This document shows, in pieces, positions 591-20,278 of a stretch of 64,000 nt of DNA. Made by a program: the position numbers and the translations under genes. The DNA lies in contig NZ_CP018937.1 of the NCBI RefSeq assembly GCF_002849695.1, positions 3,224,001-3,288,000 of the forward strand, read 5' to 3'. This DNA comes from Bacteroides fragilis. Lineage in GTDB: Bacteria; Bacteroidota; Bacteroidia; Bacteroidales; Bacteroidaceae. Numbering within the stretch: position 1 is the stretch's first letter; every line of letters starts with the position of its first letter. The notes beneath the pieces are model-generated. The model did no database searches, was not told where the DNA came from, and saw only the letters and a list, made by a program, of their open reading frames with translations.

Positions 591-1997
591 ATGGTAACAC
601 GCTATTGCAGCAAATCGTGCAATGAAAAAGCGTACAAAGAGAAGAAGCGGAAGCAGAGGCTACAGGAATACGAGGAACGGCAAAATGAGCAGCCCATGCA
701 GGAAGTCGGTATCATAGGAAGCAAGTTGTATCTCTCCCCTGCCGAAACCGCAACCCTTTTAGGTATTAGCCGTGCGACTATCTATCGTCACATGGCTTCC
801 GGAATCATCCGGGCTTTACAACTTCGTGGGCGTACCATTATCCGCAAGTCGGACATTGAAAAAATGTTTGATGATGCACCCGGTTATAAGAAACGGAGTT
901 ATGGAAGAAAACAGACCGTTCTTTATTACACTACCAATGAGATTCTAGAGAAGTTCCAAATTCAGAAAAAAACACTGTATCGTCGATGCAAGTTATACAA
1001 CATCCCTAAGGTTGAAGAAGGCAATCGTGTATTCTACAACTGCACCCTTATAGACAAGTATTTTGCCGACCTTGCCGAAGAAATCAATCCGGACTGTTAT
1101 TATACCCCGGAGCAGGTCATGGAAAAGTACGGTATGAGCCGTAATGCTGTTGTCTCTTTCGCCCTGCGCCACAATATACCTCGAATCAACCGTCATCATG
1201 AGGTATATTATTCCCGTGCCCATATAGATACCATCAAAGAAAAGCAGGAGAAACTGAATCCTGAATATTATACCTACGATGAAATCACCGAGAAATACGG
1301 ACTTACCAAGATAAACATCAGCTACTATGTCAACAAGTACGACATCAAGCGGTTCAAGCAAGGCAGTCGGACAATGGTGCTATGTTCCGAGTTTGACAAA
1401 GTCTATATAGAGCATCGTGATGGAACATATACACCCAAGAAACGGGAAAAGAAAAGCGACATGCCGAAAGAGACCTTTGTAATCCCTAAAGGTTATTATT
1501 CATCCGAGCAAATTGCAACCACTTATCAGATGAACAGGAAAACCATTTGCAGGCTGTGCCGTGAAAACGACATTCCTAAAATCAGTCATGGTGGTTTCAA
1601 TTATTACGAGCAACTGTCAGTTGACAGATTCTTCGCCAAATACAAGGCTGCAGACAATATAAAGGAATGGATTGGTGCGGAGCAAATGGAGGAGATCTAT
1701 GGTATGAGCAAAGATGCCAGATGCTCGTTTGTGCATCGCCACAAAATCCCGTCCCGTGTTGTTTATGGCAAAGTCCAATATTCAAAAGACCATATAGAGA
1801 TCATTAAAAGCGGAGGTTTCGACCAACGCGAAAAGTATTACAGCGTAACCGAAGCAATGGAAAAATATAGCCTGCGTAGGGATGATGTCTACAATTATGC
1901 GAGGTATAACAAGATATGGAAGATGTATCACGGCAAGTGTATGTTCCTGTTGAAAGAGGATTTTGATAAGGTTATGTCTGAAAAATCCGGTATCTGA
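591..1997 (+). CDS. Seven-unit helix-turn-helix (excisionase-like) protein
   Basis: The protein has 468 residues from the first usable ATG. Seven related winged-HTH units of the MerR/excisionase kind follow one another at about residues 46-92, 111-157, 169-214, 226-271, 301-347, 359-405 and 415-461. Each has a YY(T/S)xEQ-type start, a GxSRxx(V/I) helix and a closing DxxxF/I segment. Upstream in frame (555-590) the sequence still codes for a Cys-x2-Cys pair. With CSKSC at residues 6-10 it would complete a small zinc finger. Yet this frame has TAA at 540-542, directly after an ATG at 537-539, so the true start is unclear. The gene precedes the integrase and is probably a directionality or regulatory factor of the element. 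Confidence 0.75.
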   Translation: MVTRYCSKSCNEKAYKEKKRKQRLQEYEERQNEQPMQEVGIIGSKLYLSPAETATLLGISRATIYRHMASGIIRALQLRGRTIIRKSDIEKMFDDAPGYKKRSYGRKQTVLYYTTNEILEKFQIQKKTLYRRCKLYNIPKVEEGNRVFYNCTLIDKYFADLAEEINPDCYYTPEQVMEKYGMSRNAVVSFALRHNIPRINRHHEVYYSRAHIDTIKEKQEKLNPEYYTYDEITEKYGLTKINISYYVNKYDIKRFKQGSRTMVLCSEFDKVYIEHRDGTYTPKKREKKSDMPKETFVIPKGYYSSEQIATTYQMNRKTICRLCRENDIPKISHGGFNYYEQLSVDRFFAKYKAADNIKEWIGAEQMEEIYGMSKDARCSFVHRHKIPSRVVYGKVQYSKDHIEIIKSGGFDQREKYYSVTEAMEKYSLRRDDVYNYARYNKIWKMYHGKCMFLLKEDFDKVMSEKSGI

Positions 1998-2105
1998 GAA
2001 TTATTCCATACAGACAAGAATCATTTTCAGCAATGGCAGTCATCAGCATTATTTCATTGTATTGGTTTGCAACAAATTAATCACCAATTATAAAAACATA
2101 TCATT

Positions 2106-3224
2106 ATGCACGAATGTAAAACTGTAACATTGAGGACAAGACCTCTAAAGAAAAACATGTTGTCGTTCTATCTGGATTATTATCCCGGTTATCGCGACAA
2201 AGAGAGTATGAAGGTAATCCGTCATGAATCTTTGGGCATCTACATCTATGCCGACCCTAAGAATCAACAGGAACAGAACTTCAATGCCATCATGTCGGAA
2301 AAAGCGGAAGCCATCCGATGCCGACGTTTTGAATCCATCGTAAATGAACGGTATGATTTCTTTGACAAGAGCAAGATGAAAGGAGATTTTCTTGCCTATT
2401 ATAAAAAGACACTCCGCAAACACGACCAAAAATGGGAATTCGTCTATCTGCATTTCTTCAATTTCGTGGGTGGCAAATGCTCATTTGAAGAGATTGACGT
2501 AGACTTATGCAACAAGTTCAGAGAGTATCTGCTTAATGCGAAACAACTTAGACGTCATGAGCGTCCCATATCACGCAATTCGGCTGTGGGCTACTGGTCC
2601 ACATTCAGAGGATTTCTCAAAATACTCTATCGCAACAAGTTGATTCATTCCAATGTAAATGATTTCTTGGAGAAGATAGAGCCGGAAGATGTAGTGAAAG
2701 AGTACCTAAGCGTAGATGAACTGTACAGATTGGCAGAAACACCTTGCAAAATATCGGTTCTGAAAACAGCCTCGTTATTCTCTTGTCTGACAAGTCTGAG
2801 AATCAGCGATATTCTCACATTGCGATGGGAAGAAATCGTGGACTTTGCTGCTGGAGGAAAATGCGTCCATACCATCACTCAAAAGACAAAGACAGAAGAC
2901 ATCATCCCAATTAGTGACGAAGCCTTGCAATTGATTGGTTATTCTCCCGAAAAAACAGGGCTGGTATTTAAAGGATTGAAAAGATGCTGGACACAATACC
3001 CCATGAAAGAGTGGATCCGAGCCGCAGGTATCACCAAAAACATCACCTTCCACTCATATCGAAGGACATTCGCTACGCTGCAAGCGGCAGCCGGAACAGA
3101 CATCCGAACCATCCAAAGCATCATGGCACACAAGAGCATCACCACAACCCAACGATACATGAAAGTGGTGGATAGCAACAAGCGAAAAGCCAGCAACAAA
3201 ATTTCCTTGATTCGTAAGGATTAA
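2106..3224 (+). CDS. Tyrosine recombinase / integrase
   Basis: The protein has 372 residues, typical of Bacteroides element integrases. An N-terminal arm-binding region is followed by a SAM-like core-binding domain (about 90-185) and a catalytic domain. Visible catalytic residues are Arg232 (LRISD), the H-x-x-R pair His316/Arg319 (HSYRR), His342 (MAHKS) and the nucleophile Tyr351 (RYM). It would integrate and excise the element, probably at or near the 3' end of mnmE. The gene starts 108 bases after the multi-HTH gene on the same strand. All catalytic residues are present, so the enzyme looks functional. Confidence 0.9.
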   Translation: MHECKTVTLRTRPLKKNMLSFYLDYYPGYRDKESMKVIRHESLGIYIYADPKNQQEQNFNAIMSEKAEAIRCRRFESIVNERYDFFDKSKMKGDFLAYYKKTLRKHDQKWEFVYLHFFNFVGGKCSFEEIDVDLCNKFREYLLNAKQLRRHERPISRNSAVGYWSTFRGFLKILYRNKLIHSNVNDFLEKIEPEDVVKEYLSVDELYRLAETPCKISVLKTASLFSCLTSLRISDILTLRWEEIVDFAAGGKCVHTITQKTKTEDIIPISDEALQLIGYSPEKTGLVFKGLKRCWTQYPMKEWIRAAGITKNITFHSYRRTFATLQAAAGTDIRTIQSIMAHKSITTTQRYMKVVDSNKRKASNKISLIRKD

Positions 3225-3390
3225 CGGTCATTATTGCCTCTTTTATATGGTTAGAGTATGATTTTTGAGTATGATTCATATTCTAACCATAATTATTTGT
3301 AAATATCAGTCCAATAACCATTAGTATTTATGGTTATATGGAAATTAGTGCTGAACTTTGCGCCATAAAACTGTAAACAATCACAACTAT

Positions 3391-4137
3391 ATGGAGAATA
3401 ATATACAAATTCAGAAAGCAGCTGATATCAGCAGTTTGGCTGGAGTGGTCATCGTTTCACTCTCGGCACTCACCGCATACAATATCGGTGAAAAGTTCAA
3501 TCACAACATCCTGTTTGATACCACCATTTTTATTATCTCTTTGGTAATGCTTATTTTGACCTTTGCCATATTCCGCAAAGTAATGGCAGGACTTTTTACA
3601 ACAACCTCAAGTAGTACTACAAATAAGCAAGTACAAATCGAATGCTCGCAAGAAAGCAGCCATCAAAATGCTAATCAAAATCCAGTAGAAGATGAACAGA
3701 TACCTGATAGTTTGGAGAGATATGAGAGCATTCTTGTGGAAGAGCAACTGAAGGAGGCGAAACGGAAAAGGGACACCATGATAGTTATCCGCGAATATGT
3801 AGTGGAAAAGACCTCGAAATATCTTTCAAAAGAGAATATCAGCACACTATTTCGAAATATAGAGTGTATTGCCGAAAACCGGGTTAACGATTGTCAGCCA
3901 ATCCATTCAACGAAAGAAGCAAAGATCAGTTCTCCCTCTTTAAGACATCTGGCTTGGAATATCGGTGAACGGCTTGGAGTCTCCCGTCGCGACAGAGCGA
4001 TATTCATTAAATCTTCTTTCCCATACGAATTGCGCAACGCCGATATAGAATATCTGGAAGCAAATTTGCGTGTTAATGTCCCATGCGACATTCCTATTGA
4101 CGTGCCAGACAAAGGAGATTTCCACTTTCATAATTAA
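3391..4137 (+). CDS. Hypothetical membrane-anchored protein of the mobile element
   Basis: The ATG at 3391 was chosen over an upstream TTG at 3358 because the TTG overlaps a promoter-like sequence and gives an unlikely polar extension. The 248-residue product has two predicted membrane segments near its N terminus (about 15-35 and 45-65), a low-complexity Ser/Thr/Gln-rich stretch, and a charged cytoplasmic part. I do not recognise a family for the C-terminal region. It lies between the integrase and the excisionase-like gene, a slot where Bacteroides elements often carry an uncharacterised accessory gene. Confidence 0.6.
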   Translation: MENNIQIQKAADISSLAGVVIVSLSALTAYNIGEKFNHNILFDTTIFIISLVMLILTFAIFRKVMAGLFTTTSSSTTNKQVQIECSQESSHQNANQNPVEDEQIPDSLERYESILVEEQLKEAKRKRDTMIVIREYVVEKTSKYLSKENISTLFRNIECIAENRVNDCQPIHSTKEAKISSPSLRHLAWNIGERLGVSRRDRAIFIKSSFPYELRNADIEYLEANLRVNVPCDIPIDVPDKGDFHFHN

Positions 4138-4230
4138 ATCGTGCAGACGGTAATCATTGTTCCGGCTGACAGATTTCTGCAAAATTTCATTCTGTTGGTT
4201 TGCAGCATATTAATTTTAATTATTGAAGGT

Positions 4231-4605
4231 ATGAACACAACAGATTTGACTTTTAATGACCTGCCCAAAGTGGTAGGCGAACTGTGCGAGAGAATCGCAG
4301 AAATGGAAACTTTACTCAGGGACACTCTTAACCGTCAAAGCGAACCAAAAGAGAATTTGCACGTACCAATGACAATGCAGGAAGCCTGTGCATATCTGAA
4401 AATGCCAGTCTCCACCTTTTATTACAAGATAAAGAAGGACAAGATTCCGGTTATCAAACAAGGAAAGCATCTTTATATCTATCGTGACGAATTGGACAAA
4501 TGGCTGGAGGCATCTCGCAAAACAGAAGTACCTCTCACCTATGAGGAAGAAAACGAAGCGATGTATGCCTCACACCGTCGCAAGCCTAATCCTAAAAACT
4601 GGTGA
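4231..4605 (+). CDS. Excisionase-family helix-turn-helix protein
   Basis: From the ATG at 4231 the product has 124 residues. A GTG at 4141 would add a hydrophobic leader unlike the family. A coiled N-terminal stretch is followed by a MerR-type/excisionase HTH at about 47-95 (MTMQEACAYLKMPVSTFYY, then KIPVIKQGKH and YRDELDKWL). Proteins of this kind precede the RepA-like ATPase in Bacteroides mobilizable elements and act in excision or replication control. Its stop codon is immediately followed by the next start, so the two genes are translationally linked. Confidence 0.8.
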   Translation: MNTTDLTFNDLPKVVGELCERIAEMETLLRDTLNRQSEPKENLHVPMTMQEACAYLKMPVSTFYYKIKKDKIPVIKQGKHLYIYRDELDKWLEASRKTEVPLTYEEENEAMYASHRRKPNPKNW

Positions 4606-4607
4606 GT

Positions 4608-5681
4608 ATGGAAACGGCAACACCCATTGAGGATCTTACTCAAATCACTACGAGATGGCAAGAGACCATGCTCAGTCTGGAAAAGATATACGAACAGGAG
4701 CCGGAAATCCTGAGTATAGGCGGAGTGGCTATCGGGACATTGGGAAATTTCAGTGCATCCATTGGCAAGGCAAAAAGCAAAAAGACCTTCAACGTGTCAG
4801 CTATGGTAGCAGCAGCTTTGTCCGGGAAGGAAGTTCTTAACTACACAACGGATTTTCCCGATGGAAAGAACCGCATCCTTTACATTGACACCGAACAGAG
4901 TCAGAACCATTGCATGATTGTAATGCATCGTATCATGAAACTGGCAGAGTTGCCGGCTAATGAAGATTGTGACCGTTTCTATTTTCTCGCTCTACGCAAG
5001 TTCAATCCAAAGGAGCGTTTGGCTATCATAGACGATGCTATCAGGCAGATTGAGGGTCTCGGTTTCGTGGTAATTGACGGAATACGTGACTTGGTTTACG
5101 ACATCAATTCACCAAGTGAAGCCACATGTATAATATCCAAACTTATGCAGTGGACTGACGAATACCAGATTCATCTTCACACCATCCTTCACCAGAACAA
5201 AAGTGATGAAAATGCCCGTGGACACATTGGCACGGAAATCAACAACAAAGCGGAAACAGTCATCCAAATTGAGAAAGACAAGGACGACAGCAACATCAGC
5301 AAAGTGGAAAGTGTGCATACCCGTTCCAAAGACTTCCTGCCATTCGCATTCTGCATCAATGACCAGTCACTTCCCGAACTTCTGCCAGACTATGTGCCGA
5401 CAAAGAAGAGCGCAGGTCGTCCCAAACAGGAACCATTCTCCCCTTATAGGGATATCCACGAAGCCATCCATCGCAAGGCTCTCGAACTGGCTTTTGACGG
5501 AAAAAGGACGATTTCGGGATATAAGGCTTTGGAAGAAGAACTGACCACTGCCTACGAACTGGCAGGAACAAAATTGAATCACAACAAGATTGTGGAGATA
5601 ATTAAGTTTATCACGAACAAAAGGATGGTGGTTCAGGAAAGCCGTGGCATTTATCGGTTTATGCCGGATTACCACTATTGA
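4608..5681 (+). CDS. RepA-like AAA/RecA-fold ATPase of a mobilizable element
   Basis: The product has about 357 residues. A GTG at 4602, overlapping the previous stop, is an alternative start. The N-terminal half is a RecA-like fold: a variant Walker A region (SIGKAKSKKTF, about residue 52), a Walker B strand ending in VVIDGIRDL, and an HQNKSDENARGHIG segment as in RepA/DnaB-related helicases. The C-terminal part looks like a winged-helix DNA-binding region. In related Bacteroides elements this gene is followed by a primase and then mobilization genes, which I do not find here. The element is therefore either truncated or had its distal part replaced by defence cargo. Confidence 0.75.
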   Translation: METATPIEDLTQITTRWQETMLSLEKIYEQEPEILSIGGVAIGTLGNFSASIGKAKSKKTFNVSAMVAAALSGKEVLNYTTDFPDGKNRILYIDTEQSQNHCMIVMHRIMKLAELPANEDCDRFYFLALRKFNPKERLAIIDDAIRQIEGLGFVVIDGIRDLVYDINSPSEATCIISKLMQWTDEYQIHLHTILHQNKSDENARGHIGTEINNKAETVIQIEKDKDDSNISKVESVHTRSKDFLPFAFCINDQSLPELLPDYVPTKKSAGRPKQEPFSPYRDIHEAIHRKALELAFDGKRTISGYKALEEELTTAYELAGTKLNHNKIVEIIKFITNKRMVVQESRGIYRFMPDYHY

Positions 5682-6401: not shown

Positions 6402-7424
6402 TCATTCCATATCTAATGAGGGAAGGCTATTATCCTCAAATCTATCAAAGTCAGATTGGAAAAGACGGTCTTGAATGATCCTGTATTTCTCAAACTCGGA
6501 TTCAGCAAACTCTTTGGCATATTCGGCAGAAACTTTTCCGCTGTCCTGCAATATCGGGCTATCAAATAAATTAATGAATTTGTCTATTCGCTTTGCCCAA
6601 TCTTCCATTGTCATAGGGATATGACGCTTAGCCATACTTTCTGCCATATCAAGGAATGCATTGACCATTCTGCCCATTTCATCCAATTCTTTCTCTCGTA
6701 AATAGTTCTTTGCTACGAACACATCAGTTTTGACAATTTTTCCATTCGGAGCATTTTCCCAAGTGGTCAAACCCATTTGTTCCTTATTCGCATTAGCTCG
6801 TTCTACAATCAACTCTGCAGCGGTATGCCCATGCACAGCATAGTGCATTTTGTTCTGTACCTTCTTGAAGAAAAGACGGGTTGTCGGAGCATCTTTGTTA
6901 TAGTCTATAGCCGTAGCATAGATATCCGTGAGCTTCTGATAAAAACGACGCTCACTCAGCCTTATCTCCCTTATTTCAGCAAGCAAATGCTCAAAGTAAT
7001 CTACACCTAAGAAGGCCCCGTTCTCCATTCGCTTATGGTCAAGCACATATCCACGGATGGCAAACTGTCGGAGTATAAACGTACACCACTGACGGAACTG
7101 TGTGGCACGAACAGAATTAACACGATACCCGACACTAATAATGGCATCGAGATTATAATAGGTCGTGTTATAGTTTTTCCCATCCGAAGCAGTTGTTTCC
7201 ATTTTGGAAACAACTGAATTTTCAACCAACTCACCACTCTCAAAGATGTTTTTAAGGTGCTTGCTGATTGCCGGAACTCCCACATCAAAAAGCTGCGATA
7301 TAGCCTTTTGTGTTGCCCAAATGTTTTCATCCTTATACATCACTTGAATCCCATCCTCTTTGCCTTCAAGCATGAAGATGAGAAACTCAGCCGTACTATT
7401 TCGTATTTCTATATTCTTTGCCAT
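6402..7424 (-). CDS. RhuM family protein
   Basis: The 340-residue product matches the RhuM (virulence protein RhuM) family: N-terminal DNA-binding-like region (ENIWATQKAISQLFDVGVPA), the conserved YYNLDAIISVGYRVNS segment, RQWCTFILRQFAIRGYVLD, and a C-terminal helical region containing HYAVHGHTAAELI. The N-terminal part resembles KilA-N/BRO-like phage DNA-binding modules. The biochemical function is not established. Such genes recur beside restriction systems and toxin loci. It lies 27 bases after the Vsr gene on the same strand, so it is probably the last member of the defence operon. Confidence 0.8.
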   Translation of the reverse strand: MAKNIEIRNSTAEFLIFMLEGKEDGIQVMYKDENIWATQKAISQLFDVGVPAISKHLKNIFESGELVENSVVSKMETTASDGKNYNTTYYNLDAIISVGYRVNSVRATQFRQWCTFILRQFAIRGYVLDHKRMENGAFLGVDYFEHLLAEIREIRLSERRFYQKLTDIYATAIDYNKDAPTTRLFFKKVQNKMHYAVHGHTAAELIVERANANKEQMGLTTWENAPNGKIVKTDVFVAKNYLREKELDEMGRMVNAFLDMAESMAKRHIPMTMEDWAKRIDKFINLFDSPILQDSGKVSAEYAKEFAESEFEKYRIIQDRLFQSDFDRFEDNSLPSLDME

Positions 7425-7451: not shown

Positions 7452-7961
7452 TCATTTCGATTTGCCATAACTTTCAATGGGGTCTGCCACCATGCTATAT
7501 TCTTCTTCAGTTGTCTCATATGATTTGATTCTTCTATCCTCAAGATAGATGTGGCAAAGCATATATTCTAAAACCTCTAAAGTCTGTTGGCGGACTTTCG
7601 GTTTCAACTGACATTCCCAAATGGTAATACAATGCCACCCCATCGAAGTTAACTGTTGCCGTTCCTCTATATCTCTACTCCGATTACGCTCAATTTTATT
7701 CTTCCAAAACTCAACATTTGTCTTTGGTAGAACATAATATTTGCATCTTTCGTGACCGTGCCAAAAACAGCCGTTTACGAAAATAACAGTTCTGTATTTG
7801 CGTAAAACCAAATCGGGATGTCCAGGTAGTCGTGGGTGATTCAGCCTATACCGAAAGCCACGGCTGAACAAGAACTTTCTTACCAGTAATTCAGGTTTAG
7901 TATCCTTGCCCTTTATCGCACACATGCAACGATGACGTTGTTCCTTGGTCAATCTATCCAT
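7452..7961 (-). CDS. vsr: Very short patch repair endonuclease Vsr
   Basis: The 169-residue protein carries the Vsr signature: MDRLTKEQRHRCMCAIKGKDTKPE, a PGHPDLVL segment with the catalytic Asp, FVNGCFWHGH with metal-coordinating residues, and the CKYY motif. Vsr nicks 5' of the T in T:G mismatches that arise when 5-methylcytosine deaminates. It therefore accompanies C5-cytosine methyltransferases, two of which are encoded upstream in this operon. It starts 9 bases after the SIR2-Argonaute gene. Confidence 0.9.
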   Translation of the reverse strand: MDRLTKEQRHRCMCAIKGKDTKPELLVRKFLFSRGFRYRLNHPRLPGHPDLVLRKYRTVIFVNGCFWHGHERCKYYVLPKTNVEFWKNKIERNRSRDIEERQQLTSMGWHCITIWECQLKPKVRQQTLEVLEYMLCHIYLEDRRIKSYETTEEEYSMVADPIESYGKSK

Positions 7962-7970
7962 ATCAGTACA

Positions 7971-10900
7971 TTAGATGAAATATCTGTAATCGTACGTTCT
8001 ACCATCGTAATGTCCCAATAATTGTCCAACTTGCGCCAATGTACTAGACGTATCAATTGTAGCTGGAAATTTTGTATAAAAATTAAAGGAATTCCAATTC
8101 ATTTTGGTAAACCCAAGAATTTCCTTAACTATTGTTTGCATCGAACCATTACCATGATATTTAGTTATTCTCAAAGGCGAAGGTATGCCCCGTCCTCCAG
8201 GGAAGTAATTTCTATCTTGCCTTACTGAGTCTATCGTTCCATGTGTCCACAGCAAACATTCATATTGGGAGACGGGGAAACAAATTCCTCGCATAACCGG
8301 ATAACTGGCATTAACAGGACATCCATTGTCTAAATATTGGTCAATACATTTTATGGAATCTTCCATTGTTATCGTTATCAAATCTATATTTTTGATTCCT
8401 GCGTGAGACAAAGCATCTGTTATACCTTTGATTTCTTCTTCTTTGAACGGTGTTCTTTTATGTACAACCACTCTTTGAGGCATCCTATCCATAGACTTCA
8501 CAAATAATTCTTGAACATTGATACCTAATTTGTATGCTTCTTCATAAGACAGATAAGGATTATTCTTCCTATCTAAAATCGGATTGTCTATTTTGGATAA
8601 TTTGTATCTTAATCCTTGCCCCTTGGAATTATATATATGGCTACATCCTACAACAATGTTCGTTTTGCCATTTGCTTCCTTCTTGACACTATATCCAATA
8701 CCCGCATAAGCTGTATCTGCGTCCAAATCAGATAAAGTCCACGGCGTTCGCATCGATTTGACAAACAAAGCTAATGAAAGCCACCAATATATTGGGTTCT
8801 TCATATAAGTATTGAATATTGTTTTTTCTTCTACAAATTGTGTGGTAAATTCATACTGAGCCGCATATGCTTTTATATAACTGTGCATGTCAAAAGTTTC
8901 ACCATCTTTTTTGAAAGAGCGATGGCGTTCCCATACTTTAGGAATAAAAATAACAACGATAATATTCGGATTGTTATTGGCAATTTTATGGGCGAATTTA
9001 CATATGTTTTGCGCCAAACCTACAGAATCTTGTTGTATCTCACGACAGCTAATCCATAAATTAGAATTAACTGCAGGTATATCTAGCGAAGCTGAATAGA
9101 TTTGCTCAAAACCTATATATGGCTGCAAATAATCTGTTTTTGGAGCTGTTATATTTCCATTTAGGCCATTAAGAAAATCCCGAAATTGATTTGTACAAGT
9201 ACTCGGACAGATTACGCCAATTTTAACATTAGTATTAAAACTGGATTGGAATTCATAATCATATGGATTGTTTTGTAGAAGCCCTCTCATCGGATTAGTA
9301 TCGTGGATTATTTTTCGAGATGTCTTACTACAAAAGTCAAGATTTGGCTCAGATATATAAATCCCAGAATATACTATTTTTTTATTAACAAACTGAGTTT
9401 GAGGTATAAGACCTTTTTCCGTATAGTCTACCGCAACCAATCCTCTATTATTACTTATTTTAAAATTGAAATTATAACCACTATTTAATGGATAATCAAA
9501 TGCACGCTGATGCCCATTAAAAAGAATTTGTTCCCAAATAGAGATAATCTCATCATATTGAATATTGTGTTTTTTGTCAAGATATTCCAACATTAGATTC
9601 TTACGTCTGTCACTAGTGATATTTTCATCTTTAAAATACAATGTTGGAACAACAGACATAAGGGAATAATTCTTATTGTCCAAAAATACAATATCTATTT
9701 TTATTGCTTCGTAAACATCTTTATAATTTCCGAATTGACGTGTTTTATCCCAAATCAAACGTTTGGAAATAACCGCTTCTTTACCACAACTAGAAGATAG
9801 TCCACAAATCAAAGTTTTGATTACGACAGATTTCAGTGCCTGATTACCCTTCAATTCGTTAATTGACAATGGTAAACGAGATATACTATCCTCTTTAAGA
9901 CAATCGGAAAATGCTTGATGTATATGCTCTGAATAGCCAAAAGCAAATACTTTCCCTTTATAAGGGATAGCAATAATATCCTTCCCTTTCATTCTGCTTT
10001 TGAGAAAATTCCACGGTGTCTCATTTTGAGGAAAAGCAATCTCAAAAGTAAATATATCAGAAGGAATAGAAAGCGGATACAGATTTGTTTTAATACACCC
10101 ACTTGAATTCAATCTGTTCAAAGCAAATGGTGTAATTGAAATCTCCGTATTTGCTTCTTCCAGTATCTTATGAATTTCTTGGTATTTATCTTGCTCATCA
10201 TTATATGTGGAAAGGAGTATAGATATCATTGTCTTGTCAAAACCATCCGTTTCAACAAATACAGCATCTCTTCCTGCATTTCTAGCAGCAGCAAGTAAGC
10301 TCTTAACGTCTTCATTTATAAATGAGCCATATCCACACCAATATAAACGGCCTGCCCCCGGATGACTAAAAGCTTCAGTCAATGCTTCCATCAAAGACTT
10401 ATCTCTTCCACTGTATCCGATTACTATTAGATTTTTGTCTACAAAGTATTCTTTAAGTCTATGTTTAAATGTATCCTGTTGAGAATCTAGTTCTGTAGCA
10501 GTATTCTTAAGTTCAGAATATTTATAATCACCATGTAAGGCAATATATAATAATTCCTGGCTATTTTCAGTGCGATGAATACGTTCAGGATTGTCTAAAT
10601 TTATATTTATTGGAGTTATGTTTGCTTGATGAGCCGCCCTTTCAACTAGTCCATCAAAATTTGTAGTCCAAACAGATTTTAAGATTCTATATTTATGCAA
10701 TAAGCACAAAAGTTTATATCCGATATTCGGATTCTTATCAAAACATAGACTCTCAAAATATCTTGTTCTATCACCAGACAATGGGAATGCTTTTTCTGCA
10801 TAGAAAACATATTCTTCATCAGATTTTTCTATTGGATAACCTCTTTGCTCATTAAGCCATGTCTGAATTTTTTTCCTGCAACAGTCAGAATGTATATCAA

Positions 10901-11093
10901 GAAATGCTTCATTTGTCGGGTTGTTTGTTACATATATAAGTTTTTTCCAATCCCAAATACAATCTTCCGCAGATTGGACGCCTGATGTAATGGACGCACC
11001 GGCTCCTAATAAGAACGCAAATGAGCCATTCTTACTTTGTTTGAAAGATCTTAAAAAAGCATCGAAATCCATTCTGAATTGTTTTTCCTCCAT
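7971..11093 (-). CDS. SIR2-domain / short prokaryotic Argonaute fusion
   Basis: The 1040-residue protein has a SIR2-like NADase domain at about 20-295: GAGAS 30-34, TTNFD with Asn145, LHGD with His187, and GYSGRD 226-231. A middle region (about 300-600) is the likely APAZ/N-like part. MID and PIWI-like domains occupy about 620-1040. The MID nucleic-acid 5'-end pocket looks complete (His737, Lys741, Gln752, Lys779). PIWI catalytic positions are lost: GIGYS at 798-802 where GID is usual, and HKRT at 878-881 where HRDG is usual. The PIWI C terminus (NWNSFNFYTKFP) is typical. Known SIR2-APAZ/pAgo (SPARSA) systems use guide-dependent recognition of invader nucleic acid to trigger NAD+ depletion. 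The gene is spaced 4 and 9 bases from its neighbours, inside a restriction-modification operon. Confidence 0.85.
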   Translation of the reverse strand: MEEKQFRMDFDAFLRSFKQSKNGSFAFLLGAGASITSGVQSAEDCIWDWKKLIYVTNNPTNEAFLDIHSDCCRKKIQTWLNEQRGYPIEKSDEEYVFYAEKAFPLSGDRTRYFESLCFDKNPNIGYKLLCLLHKYRILKSVWTTNFDGLVERAAHQANITPININLDNPERIHRTENSQELLYIALHGDYKYSELKNTATELDSQQDTFKHRLKEYFVDKNLIVIGYSGRDKSLMEALTEAFSHPGAGRLYWCGYGSFINEDVKSLLAAARNAGRDAVFVETDGFDKTMISILLSTYNDEQDKYQEIHKILEEANTEISITPFALNRLNSSGCIKTNLYPLSIPSDIFTFEIAFPQNETPWNFLKSRMKGKDIIAIPYKGKVFAFGYSEHIHQAFSDCLKEDSISRLPLSINELKGNQALKSVVIKTLICGLSSSCGKEAVISKRLIWDKTRQFGNYKDVYEAIKIDIVFLDNKNYSLMSVVPTLYFKDENITSDRRKNLMLEYLDKKHNIQYDEIISIWEQILFNGHQRAFDYPLNSGYNFNFKISNNRGLVAVDYTEKGLIPQTQFVNKKIVYSGIYISEPNLDFCSKTSRKIIHDTNPMRGLLQNNPYDYEFQSSFNTNVKIGVICPSTCTNQFRDFLNGLNGNITAPKTDYLQPYIGFEQIYSASLDIPAVNSNLWISCREIQQDSVGLAQNICKFAHKIANNNPNIIVVIFIPKVWERHRSFKKDGETFDMHSYIKAYAAQYEFTTQFVEEKTIFNTYMKNPIYWWLSLALFVKSMRTPWTLSDLDADTAYAGIGYSVKKEANGKTNIVVGCSHIYNSKGQGLRYKLSKIDNPILDRKNNPYLSYEEAYKLGINVQELFVKSMDRMPQRVVVHKRTPFKEEEIKGITDALSHAGIKNIDLITITMEDSIKCIDQYLDNGCPVNASYPVMRGICFPVSQYECLLWTHGTIDSVRQDRNYFPGGRGIPSPLRITKYHGNGSMQTIVKEILGFTKMNWNSFNFYTKFPATIDTSSTLAQVGQLLGHYDGRTYDYRYFI

Positions 11094-11097
11094 TGTC

Positions 11098-13341
11098 TTA
11101 AATCCTTTGTTCGTATAATTCCACCATCAAATCATTGGAAATCAACTCCCCCGGCTGCATTTTTATGCGATATATGGGAGTTCGACTACTGCCCAATGAA
11201 ATAAAAGAGGCCAGATTCAACTTCAAGCATAGTTTTCCGTTCTTAGTGCCAAAATATACTTTCTCCACTTTATAATAACCGTCAATCTCTCCGCCAACCA
11301 TAGGCAAGAAATACTTGATATCCATCACATTGACAGATATCGGTATCTTCTCCATCGTATAGGTCTTTGCGATATGACTGTCAAAATCTGAATACTCTAC
11401 ATCGGTTCTTCGTACTAATCCAGTAAGGATATTCCTAATCTCCTGTTTCGGTTGTTGTTCCAAAGTCCCGACATTGTCAATGCTATTAACATGGAACTCT
11501 GTTTCAAGTTCAAACGGATCACTGATATGGAAATGTGTCTGTAAAGCATCCACCAGCTCTTTACTTTGAGCCTTTTCCCTTTTTACCGTTGCAGATTTTA
11601 TTTTAAGAGACTTCCATATATCGGAATCTTCATCCTTCATCAGAGCAAGAATCAGATAATTACTGTCACTTTTCGGACGATACAATTTGCCGTTCAGTCG
11701 CTGGAAATTGTTTTGAATAAACCGATAGCAATCCACTCCTTCACGTGGCTGTAGAGTTCTGAATGTATATAGTTGGTTGAGAGTGCCTTGAATCTTATTT
11801 CTGAATTCTTTGCGGACATACTCTCGCCATGCTGCTTGTGCACTCTTATTGTTGCGACCATACAACGATACAATGTACAGGAAGTTTACATCATAGTGGC
11901 ACAGCAACAGTGTATCCCTGTCAAACAAACGGTTCTCAAACTGGCGGTTAAGTTGCACTCCACCCTCCTGTGCTTTCAATTCTCTGTCATCAAAGGACAG
12001 GAATTTACTGCTGCCTGTCTTCTTATTGGGAATACGGGCACTGATAAAGAAATTGGGGATGGGATTATATCCTTCAGTCAATGAATCCCTTAACTGAGGA
12101 TATTCTCCGTTTCCGTCACCATCCAAAAATAAATTCATATTCCACTGAATGACATTTCTGGCGTATGTATATTGTTTGTATATTGATTTGTCGCCGAGCT
12201 GTGTCCTGTCATTCTTGGAACGCTTGTAATACTTACTATCTCCGATATAATAGGTAAGTTCGGAAACCAAGTCAGATTGTTCAATCAGGCCTTGCCCAAT
12301 AAACATATGGTCAACCAGCTTGCCGTCTTTTTGCTCTGTAAGTTCTTTCGGCAGATTTTGTTTGTCATTACCACTTACCAAAGTATCAATCATGACTTCA
12401 AAGATGTGCTCAAAGTCTTTCGCCAGCAGATAATCTTCCGCCTGCCTGTTCATTGCAATCTTATACTCTCTGTCAAAGAATGCATAGCACAAATCCCATA
12501 TCCGAAGAGCCTTATCCGAGAAATACTTGTACTTGATTTGTTTCAGTCGTCTGCATCCAAGATTCCTGTCAATATAAGACTTTTTCAACTTCTCGTAGCT
12601 GATAAGAGGATACTGAATATTGATTTCAAAAGAAAAACCGTGTGTCTCTCGGATGTAATTTAATATTGAGAAGTATATGACAAGCAGTTCTTCATCAAAG
12701 TTCACCATTTTCTTCCTATTTACAGGTTCAATGTAAACAGGGCTTCCTCTCTGTATAATGGCTTGCGATGAAGTAATGGTCTTGCCCCAGTTGATCTTGT
12801 TATAACCCGAATGTATGTTCTTGGCCACGAATGTAAAATAGTCCTGATTGTTTCTATTGAAATCCCTCAGTGCTATTATCACATCAAGTAGAGTGTTATG
12901 CTTCTGCTTTTTGCCTCGACTCTCAGACTGATATTCCTTGCTTTCAAGTATGTTGTCGTTATGTGTCTGTTTGTATACACTTATCGTCCGGTATATCCAG
13001 ATCGCAAGTGAGGACAGGAATTCCTTGTATTCCTTACAGCCTTCTTCCGTAAACTTGGCTTTTACCGTATCGGACTCAAAGTCTATTATTTCCTGCGGCG
13101 AAGCACCGAATATCGTATCATCCCCACTTTCCTCGTTTATCTCGCCTGTCAATACGACTTTCGGCAAGAAGAACACAACATCTTTTGCCGCCTTGCTATA
13201 GCAATACCCGACATACCCAAATGAATATTTGTCCTCCTTTGCAGGTACAGACACAACATCATTGAGTACATTTCTGACTGTCAGATTGTCTTTGACTATC
13301 TCATTCAGTATATATGGGTATCCTTCAATAAACAGCAGCAT
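11098..13341 (-). CDS. LlaJI-family restriction endonuclease subunit (McrC-like role)
   Basis: The 747-residue protein resembles the LlaJI restriction endonuclease family (R2 subunit). A PD-(D/E)xK-type nuclease core is visible as FEHIFEVMID (about 310-319) followed by YIGDSKYYK (365-373), where Asp368 and Lys370 form the DxK pair. The C-terminal part has a beta-rich region with ISVNVMDIKYFLPMVGG. In LlaJI, R1 is a McrB-like GTPase and R2 provides DNA cleavage. The same pairing is found here, with only 3 bases between the genes. It is longer than I recall for lactococcal LlaJI.R2, so additional domains are likely. Confidence 0.75.
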   Translation of the reverse strand: MLLFIEGYPYILNEIVKDNLTVRNVLNDVVSVPAKEDKYSFGYVGYCYSKAAKDVVFFLPKVVLTGEINEESGDDTIFGASPQEIIDFESDTVKAKFTEEGCKEYKEFLSSLAIWIYRTISVYKQTHNDNILESKEYQSESRGKKQKHNTLLDVIIALRDFNRNNQDYFTFVAKNIHSGYNKINWGKTITSSQAIIQRGSPVYIEPVNRKKMVNFDEELLVIYFSILNYIRETHGFSFEINIQYPLISYEKLKKSYIDRNLGCRRLKQIKYKYFSDKALRIWDLCYAFFDREYKIAMNRQAEDYLLAKDFEHIFEVMIDTLVSGNDKQNLPKELTEQKDGKLVDHMFIGQGLIEQSDLVSELTYYIGDSKYYKRSKNDRTQLGDKSIYKQYTYARNVIQWNMNLFLDGDGNGEYPQLRDSLTEGYNPIPNFFISARIPNKKTGSSKFLSFDDRELKAQEGGVQLNRQFENRLFDRDTLLLCHYDVNFLYIVSLYGRNNKSAQAAWREYVRKEFRNKIQGTLNQLYTFRTLQPREGVDCYRFIQNNFQRLNGKLYRPKSDSNYLILALMKDEDSDIWKSLKIKSATVKREKAQSKELVDALQTHFHISDPFELETEFHVNSIDNVGTLEQQPKQEIRNILTGLVRRTDVEYSDFDSHIAKTYTMEKIPISVNVMDIKYFLPMVGGEIDGYYKVEKVYFGTKNGKLCLKLNLASFISLGSSRTPIYRIKMQPGELISNDLMVELYEQRI

Positions 13342-13344
13342 ATC

Positions 13345-15330
13345 CTATTGCATTTTTTCTACTTTCAGATTCCAGCTTTCCGGTATCATCTGGATAAATT
13401 TATCAATAATTTCAGTTCCTCCCCATCCTCTTGTTGAGACATAAATTTTCTCTTCGCCACAGTTTACAGATTTTACTCTATCCTTCTTATCTGTTCTTTT
13501 ATCATATTCTTCCTGGGTTTCAATAAAATGAGTCACAATCTGGCCAAATTGGTTCTTCCAATTATTGACGACTTCCTGAGCTCCTAAATCAGGATTCTGC
13601 TCAACATATAGTTTTACCAGTTCTGCAGCAAGATTCTTTTTGGGATATTTACCACTATCATTATTTATTTGGTACTTTGTATAGTCTTTACCGTTGCTGT
13701 CGTATTCGTCATCCTCTTCTTCATTACCGACATCATTATCTTCTTCCACATATTTCTCTACTCCAAGATAATCCATCATTGCAATGAGTTTTGCTTTACT
13801 ATCATCACAATATAGTTCTGAAAAAGAGATATCAGCAGTGTCACTTGTCTTGAAAATATCCCCTTCTCCATCTTTGCAGACATCATTCCACAGATAGAAC
13901 AATATTTTGTTAAGCAAGACTTTATCGGTAATCACACCATCCAACGGATTAACGAAATAATCACCCAACATCTTATCTTCAGAACTGTTAGCACTCAATA
14001 TTTTTTCATTGACTTTTCGTTGGAACGAAACCCAAGAATATTCCTTACCGTCAATGACTATCTTCCAGCCTGTATTCTTATACTTAATCGGCTCATACTC
14101 CCAATCCCAGCGACGTTTGAATGCACTGTCAATCGGGAACAACGATTGGTCAGAAGTATTCATGGTAGCATATATATAGAGGTTCGGCGGCAAGCAGAGT
14201 TCTCCGTCTTTTATGCCTTGATTGTCCTCACCGAGTTCCTCTTCCAAGAATGCTCTCAAATCCGCATCTGCCTTAATATTATACTCCGATTTGCCGGCAG
14301 CATCTCTGTCAAGCAGTTGGAACAAGTCGCCGAATATCTGAGCGCAGTTACCACGATTGATTTCTTCTATTATCAGATAGACATTCTCGTCTGTCTGATA
14401 CGCACAAATATAAGCATTCAAGAACGACTGAGGAATGAATTTATAGGTAATCACATCCTCAAACAACTCCTCTCCATCTTTCATTCTTACAGTATCTTTC
14501 CCGAACAGACCATACAAAGGACGTTTCCCTTTTGTAGGTTTATATGCACCGACAAAGGTAGAGTAGTCGCTATCCGGATGGAATGTTGTTCTAAATATGT
14601 TTGCTTTCGGAACTTTTTTATCCGCAGGACACCCTTCGTATTCTCCAAGTATTTCTTTAATTTTATGCGATTTCCCTGTTCCAGGAGCACCATAATAAAT
14701 TATTTGACGACTAATTTTATCATAAGACTCTGTTTGAAGTGAGACAACATCCTCTAATCCATCCTCTTTACCATCATTGTATGGTTCTGTCACATTATCT
14801 ATTCTTACATCAAATATTCCATCTGACGCCTTCTTTATATTTAGATTTGAAAAGCCTCCAGCAAAATAGTTCCTTATAGTGAACTTAGTTATTTGAATAG
14901 CACCAGTATGATCCTCATACTCAACTTCCTTGAGTAGATTGTTGAAGTAAAAACGATTGTCTATTTCTCCATTCTTTTTTAGTACATCTTTTCTGGCATT
15001 CCATTTTTGGGTAAATGTATTTACTGAAACTCCATTTTCTTTAAATAAAGCATCAAGTATTGCTAATTGATCAAACACAAATACATCTGAATAATTTACA
15101 ATATAATGATTAGCAGATTGGTCAAATTTTCGTGGAAGAATAGACGCTATAAACAATATCGCCTGTGTAAGATTTGTCTTATCAAATCTTACCGTTATCT
15201 GTTCTCCGCAATCTTGAAACAATTCGTAATGCTCATTATCTAAAAACAAATCAGTATTTTTAGCATCTCCTGCTCCAATATGACGATAACTAGCGTTAGT
15301 GTCGTTTATGTGTTTAGTAATTTCTTCCAT
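13345..15330 (-). CDS. McrB-like AAA+ NTPase, LlaJI R1-type restriction subunit
   Basis: The 661-residue protein has an N-terminal DNA-binding region of about 200 residues and then an McrB-type AAA+ module. Walker A is GAPGTGKS at 214-221, Walker B with the McrB signature EEINRG at 322-327, and MNTSDQSL at 390-397 is followed by the arginine pair at 406-407. McrB-type motors hydrolyse GTP and translocate DNA for the partner nuclease, here encoded immediately downstream. An acidic stretch near 520-545 (DDNDVGNEEEDDEYD-like) is a linker. The gene starts 7 bases after the second methyltransferase. Confidence 0.85.
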   Translation of the reverse strand: MEEITKHINDTNASYRHIGAGDAKNTDLFLDNEHYELFQDCGEQITVRFDKTNLTQAILFIASILPRKFDQSANHYIVNYSDVFVFDQLAILDALFKENGVSVNTFTQKWNARKDVLKKNGEIDNRFYFNNLLKEVEYEDHTGAIQITKFTIRNYFAGGFSNLNIKKASDGIFDVRIDNVTEPYNDGKEDGLEDVVSLQTESYDKISRQIIYYGAPGTGKSHKIKEILGEYEGCPADKKVPKANIFRTTFHPDSDYSTFVGAYKPTKGKRPLYGLFGKDTVRMKDGEELFEDVITYKFIPQSFLNAYICAYQTDENVYLIIEEINRGNCAQIFGDLFQLLDRDAAGKSEYNIKADADLRAFLEEELGEDNQGIKDGELCLPPNLYIYATMNTSDQSLFPIDSAFKRRWDWEYEPIKYKNTGWKIVIDGKEYSWVSFQRKVNEKILSANSSEDKMLGDYFVNPLDGVITDKVLLNKILFYLWNDVCKDGEGDIFKTSDTADISFSELYCDDSKAKLIAMMDYLGVEKYVEEDNDVGNEEEDDEYDSNGKDYTKYQINNDSGKYPKKNLAAELVKLYVEQNPDLGAQEVVNNWKNQFGQIVTHFIETQEEYDKRTDKKDRVKSVNCGEEKIYVSTRGWGGTEIIDKFIQMIPESWNLKVEKMQ

Positions 15331-15337
15331 ATTATTG

Positions 15338-16405
15338 TCATTTAATTATTTTACATTTAATGAGATAGTACAACACCGCATATATTGTATTGACGCTTAC
15401 AGCATTGCCAGCTTGTTTATAAAGAGAGCCATCAGCAACACCGTATGCGCTACCTTTTCGAGCGAACTCAGCAGGAAAACCCTGCAGCATAAAGGCTTCT
15501 TCTGGAGTAAGTTTGCGAATTGGAAGTTTGGCCAGTTCCTCCTTTGTCATTGTGTCAACAGGATTTATCTTACCATGTGACTCTATATAATCTTGGCTAT
15601 AATAATTATCCTGACACGCTCTATGCATTTTATGCATAGTCGCCGTTAAAGGACGAGCTATCCTCATATTTATATCAGACTTGGATTTAAAGTTAGAAGA
15701 ACCATCTGAAAGCAATGTTGGTTTTATGCGTTCAGAAAGATAGTACTTAGAATCCACATCCTGCATTAATACATCAGATATCGTTTCAAAATACTCCAAA
15801 CTCGTTTCTTTATACATTTTATCAAACTCTTTCGCAATCAACTTAGACGAGAAGTCAAAATCGTTAGAAATTTTTGCAGTTGTAGCAAAAATTAACACTC
15901 TATTACGTGTTTGTGGCAAATGGAAATCTGATGTATTGAAAATATCGGCATAAACATGATAACCTATTGATTCTAATTCATGTTTGATTCTATTAAATGT
16001 CCTTCCTTTATCATGATTTCGAAGATTCTTGACATTCTCCAATAAGACATATTTGGGCTTCTTTATCGCCAATATATCCATTATACGGAAAAACATCTGT
16101 CCGCGATCCTCTTCAAATCCAGCTTGGCTTCCCATCATACTGAATGTCTGACAGGGAAATCCACCTGTCAGTAAGTCGAATTTAGGAAGAGATTTTATGT
16201 TCTTCTTATTACCGGTAAAAGCAACAATATCCCCCAGTACAAATTCATTTTCATCTATGTTATAATTTGCACGATAGGTCAATTCCGCCTTAATATCAAT
16301 CTCTGAATACCCTACACAATGAAATTCCATAACATTGTCCTTTGTAAGAAGATCCATTGCCCTCCTAAAACCGCCAATACCAGCAAATAGTTCTAAATGT
16401 TTCAT
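15338..16405 (-). CDS. DNA (cytosine-5) methyltransferase, second of the pair
   Basis: The 355-residue protein shows the C5-methyltransferase motifs in order: ELFAGIGG (motif I, 5-12), GGFPCQTFS with catalytic Cys85 (motif IV), ENVKN at 123-127 (motif VI), and QAGNAVSV near the C terminus (motif X). It overlaps the upstream methyltransferase by 4 bases. Two different C5 methyltransferases suggest an asymmetric recognition site with one enzyme per strand, as in LlaJI. The modified sequence cannot be read from the DNA. Confidence 0.9.
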   Translation of the reverse strand: MKHLELFAGIGGFRRAMDLLTKDNVMEFHCVGYSEIDIKAELTYRANYNIDENEFVLGDIVAFTGNKKNIKSLPKFDLLTGGFPCQTFSMMGSQAGFEEDRGQMFFRIMDILAIKKPKYVLLENVKNLRNHDKGRTFNRIKHELESIGYHVYADIFNTSDFHLPQTRNRVLIFATTAKISNDFDFSSKLIAKEFDKMYKETSLEYFETISDVLMQDVDSKYYLSERIKPTLLSDGSSNFKSKSDINMRIARPLTATMHKMHRACQDNYYSQDYIESHGKINPVDTMTKEELAKLPIRKLTPEEAFMLQGFPAEFARKGSAYGVADGSLYKQAGNAVSVNTIYAVLYYLIKCKIIK

Positions 16406-17547
16406 AAGAATTTCATTATACTACGTCCTATCACTTCAGCAAACTTCACTGGTACCGCATTTCCAACTTGTGCATACCATGAGTTTTGAGCTCCTTTCAA
16501 TATAAAATCATCTGGAAACGTTTGTATGCGTGCAGCCTCCCTTGGAGACAATCCACGCGCTTCCCATGGATGAATATACATATTACAATCATACTTCATA
16601 TGAGAAGTGATAGTTTTACATATTTGGTTCTCATCAAGTTTAAAGTACTTATCTTTAAATATGTTATTACGCCTTTTATACGGCATTATATCTTGTATGG
16701 ATTCATGTAAAGAATTTGCGCCTTGAGGCAATCTTCTATAAATCTCAATATCACGTAAATTATTATATCTATTTTTGTGATTATATAATTTAGTAATAAC
16801 TCTATCACCATTAATAAAGTGATAAAAATCTGTATCCGGATATGAAAAATCTCGTTCCGTAAATCCACACTCTTCAGATTCATACTCTCCTTGATTCTTT
16901 TCTTTTCTAGCTTCCAGATGTGGCAGACCAAACAATACATCTCTTAATAAAAAAGGATCTCTTTTGTAACGTTCAATTTCTGCAAAAATATCATTTGGAG
17001 CAACACCCATTCTGTTACCAATCATTATGAAACGTTCTCTATTTTGAGGTATACCAAAATCTTGAACTTTCAATAACCGATAATCATAAAGATACTCATC
17101 TCCTAAGTACTCTTTAAAATTGGCAATTATCTCATCGAACTTATTAGCCATTCCTTTTACATTTTCCATTATGAAAAATTGCGGTCTAATTTCCGAAAGG
17201 AATTGCAAATAAGCCTTATAAAGCTGATTCCTTGGATCATCAATAATCCTTTGCCTATTCGCCATAGAAAAGCCTTGGCAAGGAGGGCCTCCACATACTA
17301 AAGTAATTGGTCTATCCGGATTCTTAAGTGTATCTCTATATTTGTCTAAACAAGTATTCAATTCATTGATGTCTCCAATAAAATACTGTCCTTGTTTTAG
17401 ACTATGATTAGCCAAGTAAGTAGATGCAAAGGTTTCAACAATCTCGTTCATGAACACAACTTCAAACCCTGCCTGTTCAAGCCCAAGGCTCAACCCGCCA
17501 CACCCTGCGAATAAATCTATAAATGTATATTTTTTTTGTCTACTCAT
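16402..17547 (-). CDS. DNA (cytosine-5) methyltransferase, first of the pair
   Basis: The 381-residue protein has DLFAGCGG at 11-18 (SAM binding), GGPPCQGFS with catalytic Cys90, MENVKG at 127-132, and QVGNAVPV near the end. Its target recognition region between about 200 and 320 differs fully from that of the second enzyme. Its start overlaps the stop of the Cro-like regulator by 4 bases, and it overlaps the next gene by 4. Host DNA protection is the expected role. Confidence 0.92.
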   Translation of the reverse strand: MSRQKKYTFIDLFAGCGGLSLGLEQAGFEVVFMNEIVETFASTYLANHSLKQGQYFIGDINELNTCLDKYRDTLKNPDRPITLVCGGPPCQGFSMANRQRIIDDPRNQLYKAYLQFLSEIRPQFFIMENVKGMANKFDEIIANFKEYLGDEYLYDYRLLKVQDFGIPQNRERFIMIGNRMGVAPNDIFAEIERYKRDPFLLRDVLFGLPHLEARKEKNQGEYESEECGFTERDFSYPDTDFYHFINGDRVITKLYNHKNRYNNLRDIEIYRRLPQGANSLHESIQDIMPYKRRNNIFKDKYFKLDENQICKTITSHMKYDCNMYIHPWEARGLSPREAARIQTFPDDFILKGAQNSWYAQVGNAVPVKFAEVIGRSIMKFL

Positions 17548-17768
17548 TCTACTTCATAATTAAAATCGGCCTCTATAAGGTCTTTAATATCCACTTTAAG
17601 CAGTTGGGCTATTTCTACAAACTGAGACATTGATGGTTGTATCTTATTAGTCTTCCATCGTGACACAGTCATATCGGTGACACCCATCTGTTCTGCCAGC
17701 CAACGATTGGTTATTTCCTTTTCCGCTAGAACTACACGCAATCGGTTTGAGCATTCTATTTTCGCCAT
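17544..17768 (-). CDS. XRE/Cro-family regulator of the restriction operon
   Basis: I place the start at 17768, giving 74 residues beginning MAKIECSNRL. Longer starts would run into the promoter at 17795-17802. A five-helix Cro/C1 HTH covers about 8-64 (WLAEQMGVTDMTVSRW as the DNA-contacting part). Proteins of this size act as controller proteins in restriction-modification systems. They delay nuclease expression or autoregulate the operon. The gene heads the operon and overlaps the first methyltransferase by 4 bases. An inverted repeat at 17866-17888 upstream is a possible operator. Confidence 0.8.
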   Translation of the reverse strand: MAKIECSNRLRVVLAEKEITNRWLAEQMGVTDMTVSRWKTNKIQPSMSQFVEIAQLLKVDIKDLIEADFNYEVE

Positions 17769-17794
17769 ATTGCTTCGCATTATATTTTCAAGTA

Positions 17795-17802
17795 CAAAAT
17801 TA
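17795..17802 (-). promoter_or_regulatory. Promoter -7 box of the restriction operon
   Basis: Read on the minus strand the box is TAATTTTG, a perfect match to the Bacteroides TAnnTTTG. Transcription would begin near 17788, giving a leader of about 20 bases to the regulator start at 17768. Confidence 0.6.
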
Positions 17803-17865
17803 AACATAAAAAGATAATATTCAAAACAACATGATAAGAATATCATATAACGTCGTTACAAAAAG

Positions 17866-17888: not shown

Positions 17889-17928
17889 TTGATTCCACAT
17901 AATTTGATCTCATTGTATCGGTCGCATC

Positions 17929-17954
17929 ATCAATCTATCATATAATATGCAAAA
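17929..17954. repeat. 26-bp direct repeat, left copy flanking the hip module
   Basis: This copy matches 20253-20278 at 25 of 26 positions; both contain CTATCATATAATATGCAAAA. It lies just after the stop of the third gene of the hip module, and the other copy lies just before hipB. The pair therefore brackets the module. Confidence 0.7.
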
Positions 17955-17992
17955 ACACACCTCTTTCTTTACTTTATAATAGGTTATTGTTT

Positions 17993-19878: not shown

Positions 19879-19881
19879 AGA

Positions 19882-20202: not shown

Positions 20203-20252
20203 TACTACATCAAATTAAGGTGCAAAGCAACTATGTTGATGACTTTGCTATA

Positions 20253-20278
20253 ATCAACCTATCATATAATATGCAAAA
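20253..20278. repeat. 26-bp direct repeat, right copy, in the hipB promoter region
   Basis: This is the partner of 17929-17954 (one mismatch). It lies in the hipB upstream region. It may be an operator or promoter element that was copied, or a scar left by insertion of the hip module. Confidence 0.7.

Follow-up and report, generated by a model that had tools for sequence, protein, structure and literature searches.

The locus described here raises the question of what an Argonaute that has lost its catalytic centre might do, and of what it might do in the middle of a restriction-modification operon. The window (the whole stretch analysed) comprises 64,000 nt of Bacteroides fragilis, contig NZ_CP018937.1 (GCF_002849695.1), positions 3,224,001-3,288,000, and carries a gene for a short prokaryotic Argonaute (pAgo; P0001) in which SIR2, APAZ, MID and PIWI regions are fused. 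According to our best explanation, to which we give a probability of about 0.85, the protein is a single-chain SIR2-APAZ short pAgo that would respond through guided NAD+ hydrolysis, and that, less surely, could have a second-line role in a LlaJI-type operon.

The pAgo gene is a single open reading frame (ORF) of 1040 codons on the minus strand of 7971-11093, whereas many stops interrupt the plus strand. An earlier note on this DNA had found the same frame and its 1040 residues, with the strand left unstated, and had proposed that sensor and effector are united in one chain, as the single open frame confirms. Each residue that it had named lies where it was placed (N145, H187, H737, K741, Q752, K779, G798-I799-G800-Y801 and H878-K879-R880-T881). 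The PADLOC pAgo model PDLC02384 (1030 positions) matched residues 5-1040 with 1424.8 bits, and sequence searches matched residues 597-1040 with GsAgo (PDB 8in8_C; E 3.2e-60) and residues 16-398 with GsSir2 (PDB 8in8_B; E 5.5e-31); as judged from the sequences, the homology of the protein to all three is far above chance. A structure model was built from an alignment named A1, which held 11 of 16 distinct fused sequences (L005 and L006, 98-99% identical to L004, the broken L013, and L016 and L022, which came from genome searches, were excluded; L numbers denote loci). Its mean local confidence (pLDDT) was 77.9 and its predicted template-modelling score (pTM) 0.62. Residue conservation was assessed in an alignment of 17 intact distinct fused sequences (all but L041), which are 28-78% identical to the window pAgo. 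The structure prediction and alignment proposed in the earlier note upheld the domain order, the MID pocket, the loss of PIWI catalysis and the SIR2 dyad.

In the C-terminal half, the model of residues 571-1040 was superimposed on the SPARSA Argonaute 8jkz_B over 452 residues with a Z score of 37.1 and a root-mean-square deviation (rmsd) of 2.6, so that the MID/PIWI fold, whose absence had been considered beforehand, is present; identity to the GsSPARSA Ago in this part is 28%. The residues of the 5'-phosphate pocket, H737, K741, Q752 and K779, are identical in 17/17 sequences, in agreement with the earlier proposal of a complete pocket. The 5'-phosphate of the guide is contacted in GsAgo by H166, Q181 and a lysine that appears in print as K70 (PMC10781750; this and the other papers are cited for the portions of their text available to us). 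The HMMER alignment (offset 571) equates H737, Q752 and K741 with GsAgo H166, Q181 and K170, K70 being read as K170, and sets K779 opposite GsAgo K207. The last residue of the pAgo is Ile, and Ile or Met in its relatives; in a TIR-APAZ/Ago system the C-terminal Ile507 aids 5'-phosphate binding via a metal (PMC10474274), and the same source describes short pAgos without the DEDX tetrad.

The PIWI domain of the window pAgo would likewise be unable to cut. HKRT lies opposite HKTT of GsAgo, and Gly800 is paired with Asp at residue 502 of the Aquifex Argonaute 1yvu, in a match of a 102-aa fragment that is weak alone (E 0.027); 1yvu was also matched by the whole protein (E 8.8e-05) and by the A1 profile (E 5.2e-10). 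We take Asp502 to be catalytic. Of the 17 sequences, 16 have Gly at position 800 and Arg at position 880, L106 having Ala and Thr, respectively. The loss of catalysis claimed from GIGYS and HKRT is thus borne out at the first tetrad position and at HKRT, the only ones aligned; no complete DEDX was seen elsewhere in the alignments, in which tetrad positions 2 and 4 have no residue-level alignment to an active enzyme. Among the candidates for an active long comparator, the long pAgos L108 and L109 have no Asp at the first tetrad position (L109 matched AfAgo, EcAgo and RsAgo in the PDB), and three plasmid-borne pAgos are short ones; L024 and L026, which are SIR2-APAZ partners and not Argonautes, were left out of this comparison.

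In the N-terminal half, Pfam SIR2_2 matched residues 140-258 (E 2.4e-13), and G30, G32, N145, D147 and H187 are invariant in all 17 sequences. N145 and H187, which the earlier note had listed as kept, align with GsSir2 N142 and H186, both of which are required for NAD+ hydrolase (NADase) activity, their Ala mutants being inactive (PMC10781750). The presence of an APAZ region is upheld by the A1 profile (11 sequences), which matched GsSir2 residues 7-446, reaching its APAZ part (E 6.1e-45), and by structural alignment to the SPARSA SIR2-APAZ chains 8y80_E (model residues 8-556) and 8jl0_A (5-557), with Z scores of 26.0 and 25.6.

In GsSPARSA, the Sir2/Ago system of Geobacter sulfurreducens and the nearest one with a solved structure, guide RNA and target DNA turn on the SIR2 NADase (PMC10781750). 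The window pAgo resembles this system in its SIR2 dyad, its APAZ region, its MID pocket and a PIWI domain without the tetrad; unlike it, the window protein is one chain instead of two subunits, the solved SIR2-APAZ relatives that we found being two-subunit complexes. Because GsSPARSA is activated in this way and carries equivalent residues, NAD+ hydrolysis in response to guided sensing is the reading that fits best, and by this analogy the pAgo is most likely a guide-dependent NADase. Its MID pocket would hold a 5'-phosphorylated guide, and MID-PIWI and APAZ together would form the channel for guide and target. The guide-loaded protein would pair with invader nucleic acid and, as PIWI could not cut it, the pairing would be signalled to the N-terminal SIR2 domain, releasing NAD+ hydrolysis; the loss of NAD+ would then stop the cell (abortive infection). 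The guide RNA, the single-stranded DNA target, the activation and the NAD+ loss are what we infer from GsSPARSA, whereas the homology, the fold, the residues kept and lost and the gene order are supported directly in the window protein and its locus.

As a protein, it is an added, well-preserved and otherwise unremarkable single-chain member of a known short-pAgo branch. The SIR2-APAZ type fused to PIWI was noted already in 2009 (PMC2743648), and the one-chain form was rejected as a novelty, this branch being long known (PMC2743648, PMC6299218) and a PADLOC model of that length being available. The SIR2-APAZ-fused short pAgos (APAZ group Ia in PMC6299218, S1A in the earlier note) have the same four-region chain, and no protein difference from them was found. 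What is less expected is the setting, which the earlier note had missed.

The pAgo gene starts 4 bp after a LlaJI-type nuclease gene and ends 9 bp ahead of vsr. The order on the minus strand is XRE regulator, two C5-cytosine methyltransferases, McrB-like subunit, LlaJI/McrC-like subunit, pAgo, vsr and rhuM (Table 1), and the successive gaps from the regulator to rhuM are -4, -4, +7, +3, +4, +9 and +27 bp. By its gene content, with two methyltransferases and an McrB-like/McrC-like pair, this cluster is a LlaJI-type restriction-modification operon, in which restriction is predicted; rhuM is a possible further operon gene. The McrB model PRK11331 matched the McrB-like subunit at 5.3e-09, well under the model cut-off. 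The McrC-like subunit had no PADLOC match at 0.01, and a D...DSK pattern, a candidate for the PD...(D/E)xK catalytic motif, was recognised in its translation by eye, unaligned with R2.LlaJI. As in the LlaJI system (PMC1459862), the McrB-like and McrC-like restriction subunits come after the methylation genes; the window operon differs from that description in the pAgo, vsr and possibly rhuM genes behind the nuclease gene. Promoter and terminator scans of the locus scored at the level of shuffled sequence and were uninformative.

Table 1. Coordinates of the pAgo gene, its regions and the genes of the surrounding operon.
Feature	Position in window	Strand	Basis
Fused SIR2-APAZ-MID-PIWI short pAgo (P0001), 1040 aa	7971..11093	-	ORF and domain evidence
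SIR2 NADase domain (predicted), about residues 1-331	10101..11093	-	Pfam SIR2_2; GsSir2 match; conserved residues
APAZ region, about residues 331-570	9384..10103	-	Structural alignment to SPARSA SIR2-APAZ chains
MID-PIWI, about residues 571-1040; pocket H737, K741, Q752, K779; Gly800	7971..9383	-	8jkz_B alignment
XRE/Cro-type regulator, first gene of operon	17544..17846	-	Pfam HTH_26 1.5e-09; 4 bp overlap with methyltransferase 2
C5-cytosine DNA methyltransferase 2	16402..17547	-	Pfam DNA_methylase 6.7e-67
C5-cytosine DNA methyltransferase 1	15338..16405	-	Pfam DNA_methylase 1.5e-73
LlaJI R1/McrB-like AAA+ subunit	13345..15330	-	Pfam AAA_5 3.5e-07; PADLOC REase_II 1.2e-43
LlaJI R2/McrC-like nuclease subunit	11098..13341	-	Pfam RE_LlaJI 1.7e-06, 27.9 bits against cut-off 23.6
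Vsr mismatch endonuclease	7452..7961	-	Pfam Vsr 7.3e-33; TIGR00632 142 bits
RhuM-family gene (PADLOC PDC-S05)	6402..7424	-	Pfam Virulence_RhuM 1.3e-107; PDC-S05 2.2e-152

This setting poses a testable question, namely whether a restriction operon controls the guided suicide effector that lies within it and is backed up by that effector. The pAgo would be co-transcribed with the operon, whose regulator and methyltransferases would set its timing, and would act as a second line that kills the cell when restriction fails. Such a co-regulated second line is what we infer more weakly, at about even odds against the alternative that an independent defence gene landed in the operon and borrows its promoter without any functional link. 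The idea is not foreign, since DarTG2 (PMC12255303) and TgvAB (PMC11411939) have been published as defence modules embedded in type I restriction operons, with a shared regulator described for the DarTG2 island (PMC12255303). Restriction operons with embedded defence genes are thus already known; the window resembles these cases in having a second defence module inside a restriction operon and differs in that the operon is LlaJI-type and the module a pAgo. No published pAgo within a LlaJI operon was found, a weak absence, as the searches did not require both terms jointly. For the SIR2-APAZ-fused pAgos, the available text of PMC6299218 does not mention a place between a LlaJI nuclease gene and vsr; it names HsdS and AlbA_2 among the genes that accompany pAgos in operons.

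In order to place the locus among its relatives, 19 fused loci were compared (the window, L002-L014, L041, L106, L107, L112 and L114), of which 13 came from one genome scan, one, plus a copy, from a viral-contig scan and four, plus a copy, from genome searches; copies were not counted, namely L015/L105, whose protein is that of L006, and L040. The two IMG/VR loci are L040, with the same DNA as L003, and L041, whose protein is 98% identical to that of L014. Any pAgo match, the own genome counted here and below, was found in 7/301 genomes of the family and 27/395 of the phylum, and a match at E 1e-60 in 4/393 genomes of the order; no second fused pAgo was found in the own genome. Matches occurred in 124 of 72,556 plasmid records, with H1 (the sole match with at least 80% cover), H2 and H4 being two-gene systems, and in 4 of 50,697 phage records, none at 80% cover. 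The phage match H41, 47% identical over residues 8-611, extends up to the last position of its record, possibly as a truncated fused pAgo gene.

Restriction or DNA-modification genes stand in the same-strand run with the fused pAgo in 7/19 loci, or 7/17 when the near copies L004, L005 and L006, counted as three, are merged. LlaJI genes are present in the runs of the window and L002, the latter with a 78% identical pAgo and the order McrB-McrC-pAgo-AlbA_2-Vsr, that is, with one extra gene ahead of vsr. In L008 (8469-14313) the hsdM and hsdS genes of a type I system flank the fused SIR2-pAgo with gaps of +2 and -4 nt; in L107 the order is HsdM-HsdS-pAgo with an 11 nt overlap, HsdR being further along; in L013 HsdM-HsdS-HsdR precede a broken pAgo; in L004 HsdR is further upstream and a WYL regulator adjoins the pAgo; and L009 has SspD- and PbeA-like genes in the run. 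Drawn up with no matched control set, these counts describe a co-location of fused pAgo and restriction genes and are not proof of association.

That the gene arrived independently and has no functional link to the operon falls only slightly short of an even chance, and the points that favour it are largely those that tell against a second-line role. In 12/19 fused loci the run contained no recognised restriction gene, several of these loci being cut by contig ends: at least four (L005, L006, L010 and L112) end too early to be judged. Among 99 ORFs that were unlabelled (or RhuM), 30 were scanned with Pfam and 10 of these with PADLOC, the other restriction genes in the runs being recognised solely by BLAST against the labelled set, so that some were possibly missed. 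Apart from the MID-OH groups, one study could assign no defined operon compositions to pAgo groups (Ryazansky 2018, PMC6299218). In the survey of LlaJI-type loci described below, 31/33 carry no pAgo behind the nuclease gene. The G+C content at third codon positions (GC3) is 0.26 in the pAgo gene against 0.45 in the nuclease gene and 0.40 in vsr; the lower value is only a weak sign that the gene came into the operon separately, because methyltransferase 2 (0.257) is equally low. Against an independent arrival, the pAgo gene lies within -11 to +4 nt of a restriction gene in 4/19 loci, in both LlaJI and type I operons, and L002 conserves the gene order at 78% identity; a loose co-location would not require so tight an arrangement.

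The second alternative concerns the trigger: activation might come from DNA-guided recognition or from a restriction product, and not from RNA-guided recognition of single-stranded DNA. We consider this improbable, as the 5'-phosphate pocket is invariant and the MID-PIWI geometry is overall like that of SPARSA. It draws on the nuclease genes that adjoin the pAgo gene and on the guide-base readers of GsAgo, N184, R190 and N195, which are not kept: they face E755, N761 and P767, positions that adjoin a gap in the alignment and vary among relatives, D164 (= D735) alone being kept. The protein may thus prefer other guides than GsSPARSA, whose preference is for 5'-AU. Besides these lost contacts, three further points weigh against guided NAD+ hydrolysis as we propose it. 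In one study, NAD+ loss hardly changed when GsAgo His166 was mutated (PMC10474274), which makes the kept H737 weaker evidence. Short stretches of the model have pLDDT below 50, including 188-205, which adjoins H187. In addition, the rmsd of 14-15 A to both SPARSA SIR2-APAZ chains, at Z scores near 26, indicates that the SIR2 and APAZ domains match and that the angle between them differs from the solved structures. That the gene is an inactive relic with a non-functional SIR2 or guide pocket, as the broken relative L013 (8394-11533, Hoylesella saccharolytica; pAgo split into two reading frames) might suggest, is very improbable for a frame intact over 1040 codons with all key residues kept.

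The place of the gene was also compared across LlaJI-type operons. At E 0.001 the nuclease subunit was found in 34/201 genomes of the family, and in the order 2/295 genomes had it at E 1e-100. Thirty-three LlaJI-type loci were used (L075-L104, the window, L002 and L115), the remaining, mostly short or partial, matches (e.g. L049) being left aside, and the slot was defined as the position directly behind the nuclease gene, on the same strand and within less than 150 bp. It holds a pAgo in two loci (window and L002), a Gabija pair with PDC-S54 in L076, a CBASS cyclase with a Cap15-type effector in L088, AbiH as the third gene of an insert in L078, and other genes in ten (L077, L080, L082, L089, L094, L095, L097, L098, L102 and L104). 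In five (L075, L085, L090, L092 and L101) vsr follows immediately, and in 13, including L103 at a contig end, the slot is empty. Where vsr lies behind the nuclease gene (n=10), five operons have one or more intervening genes and five none. Six of the ten other inserts were scanned: those of L077 and L098 had no Pfam match, and the rest were Fic, DUF2971 (twice) and a ClpP-like protease; of the four left unscanned, that of L095 is by eye unlike defence.

By these counts, made without a statistical control, LlaJI-type operons look like having an exchangeable slot behind the nuclease gene, although defence islands collect defence genes anyway. Tentatively, and at somewhat less than even odds, the LlaJI operons of the host family might carry a swappable backup or suicide slot (SIR2-pAgo, Gabija, CBASS, AbiH), with one regulator and one set of methyltransferases governing both a first line, which cuts, and a second, swappable line, which kills, and the fused SIR2-pAgo might have entered such settings several times (LlaJI, type I, phosphorothioation-like). 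If the slot is truly exchangeable, it is a place to seek undescribed defence genes, given the 10/33 operons with other genes there. L075 (McrC-Vsr without pAgo, 77-78% McrC identity) was rejected as a clean empty site, its McrC matching query residues 1-679 only. In L083 a 479-aa ORF lies between McrB and McrC. RhuM genes recur: behind vsr in the window, between McrB and McrC in L082 (3927-4976, 72% identical) and behind the pAgo in L007 (4960-5940, 46%).

Upstream of the restriction operon, a HipBA-like operon occupies 17993-20202 (HipA_C 6.8e-46); its third gene (200 aa) had no Pfam match at 0.1. Two 55-nt stretches, 17926-17980 and 20250-20304, are 80% identical and lie just upstream of the genes for the restriction-operon regulator and the HipB-like regulator, both on the minus strand; the two operons look as if they shared an operator. 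No clear element ends were found among the direct repeats around the locus. The surroundings suggest that the defence cluster is near an integrative or mobilisable element. A tyrosine recombinase gene and other plus-strand genes (591-5681, with 2106-3224) adjoin the cluster. In L013, the pAgo stands beside genes that by eye resemble those of a relaxase and an integrase.

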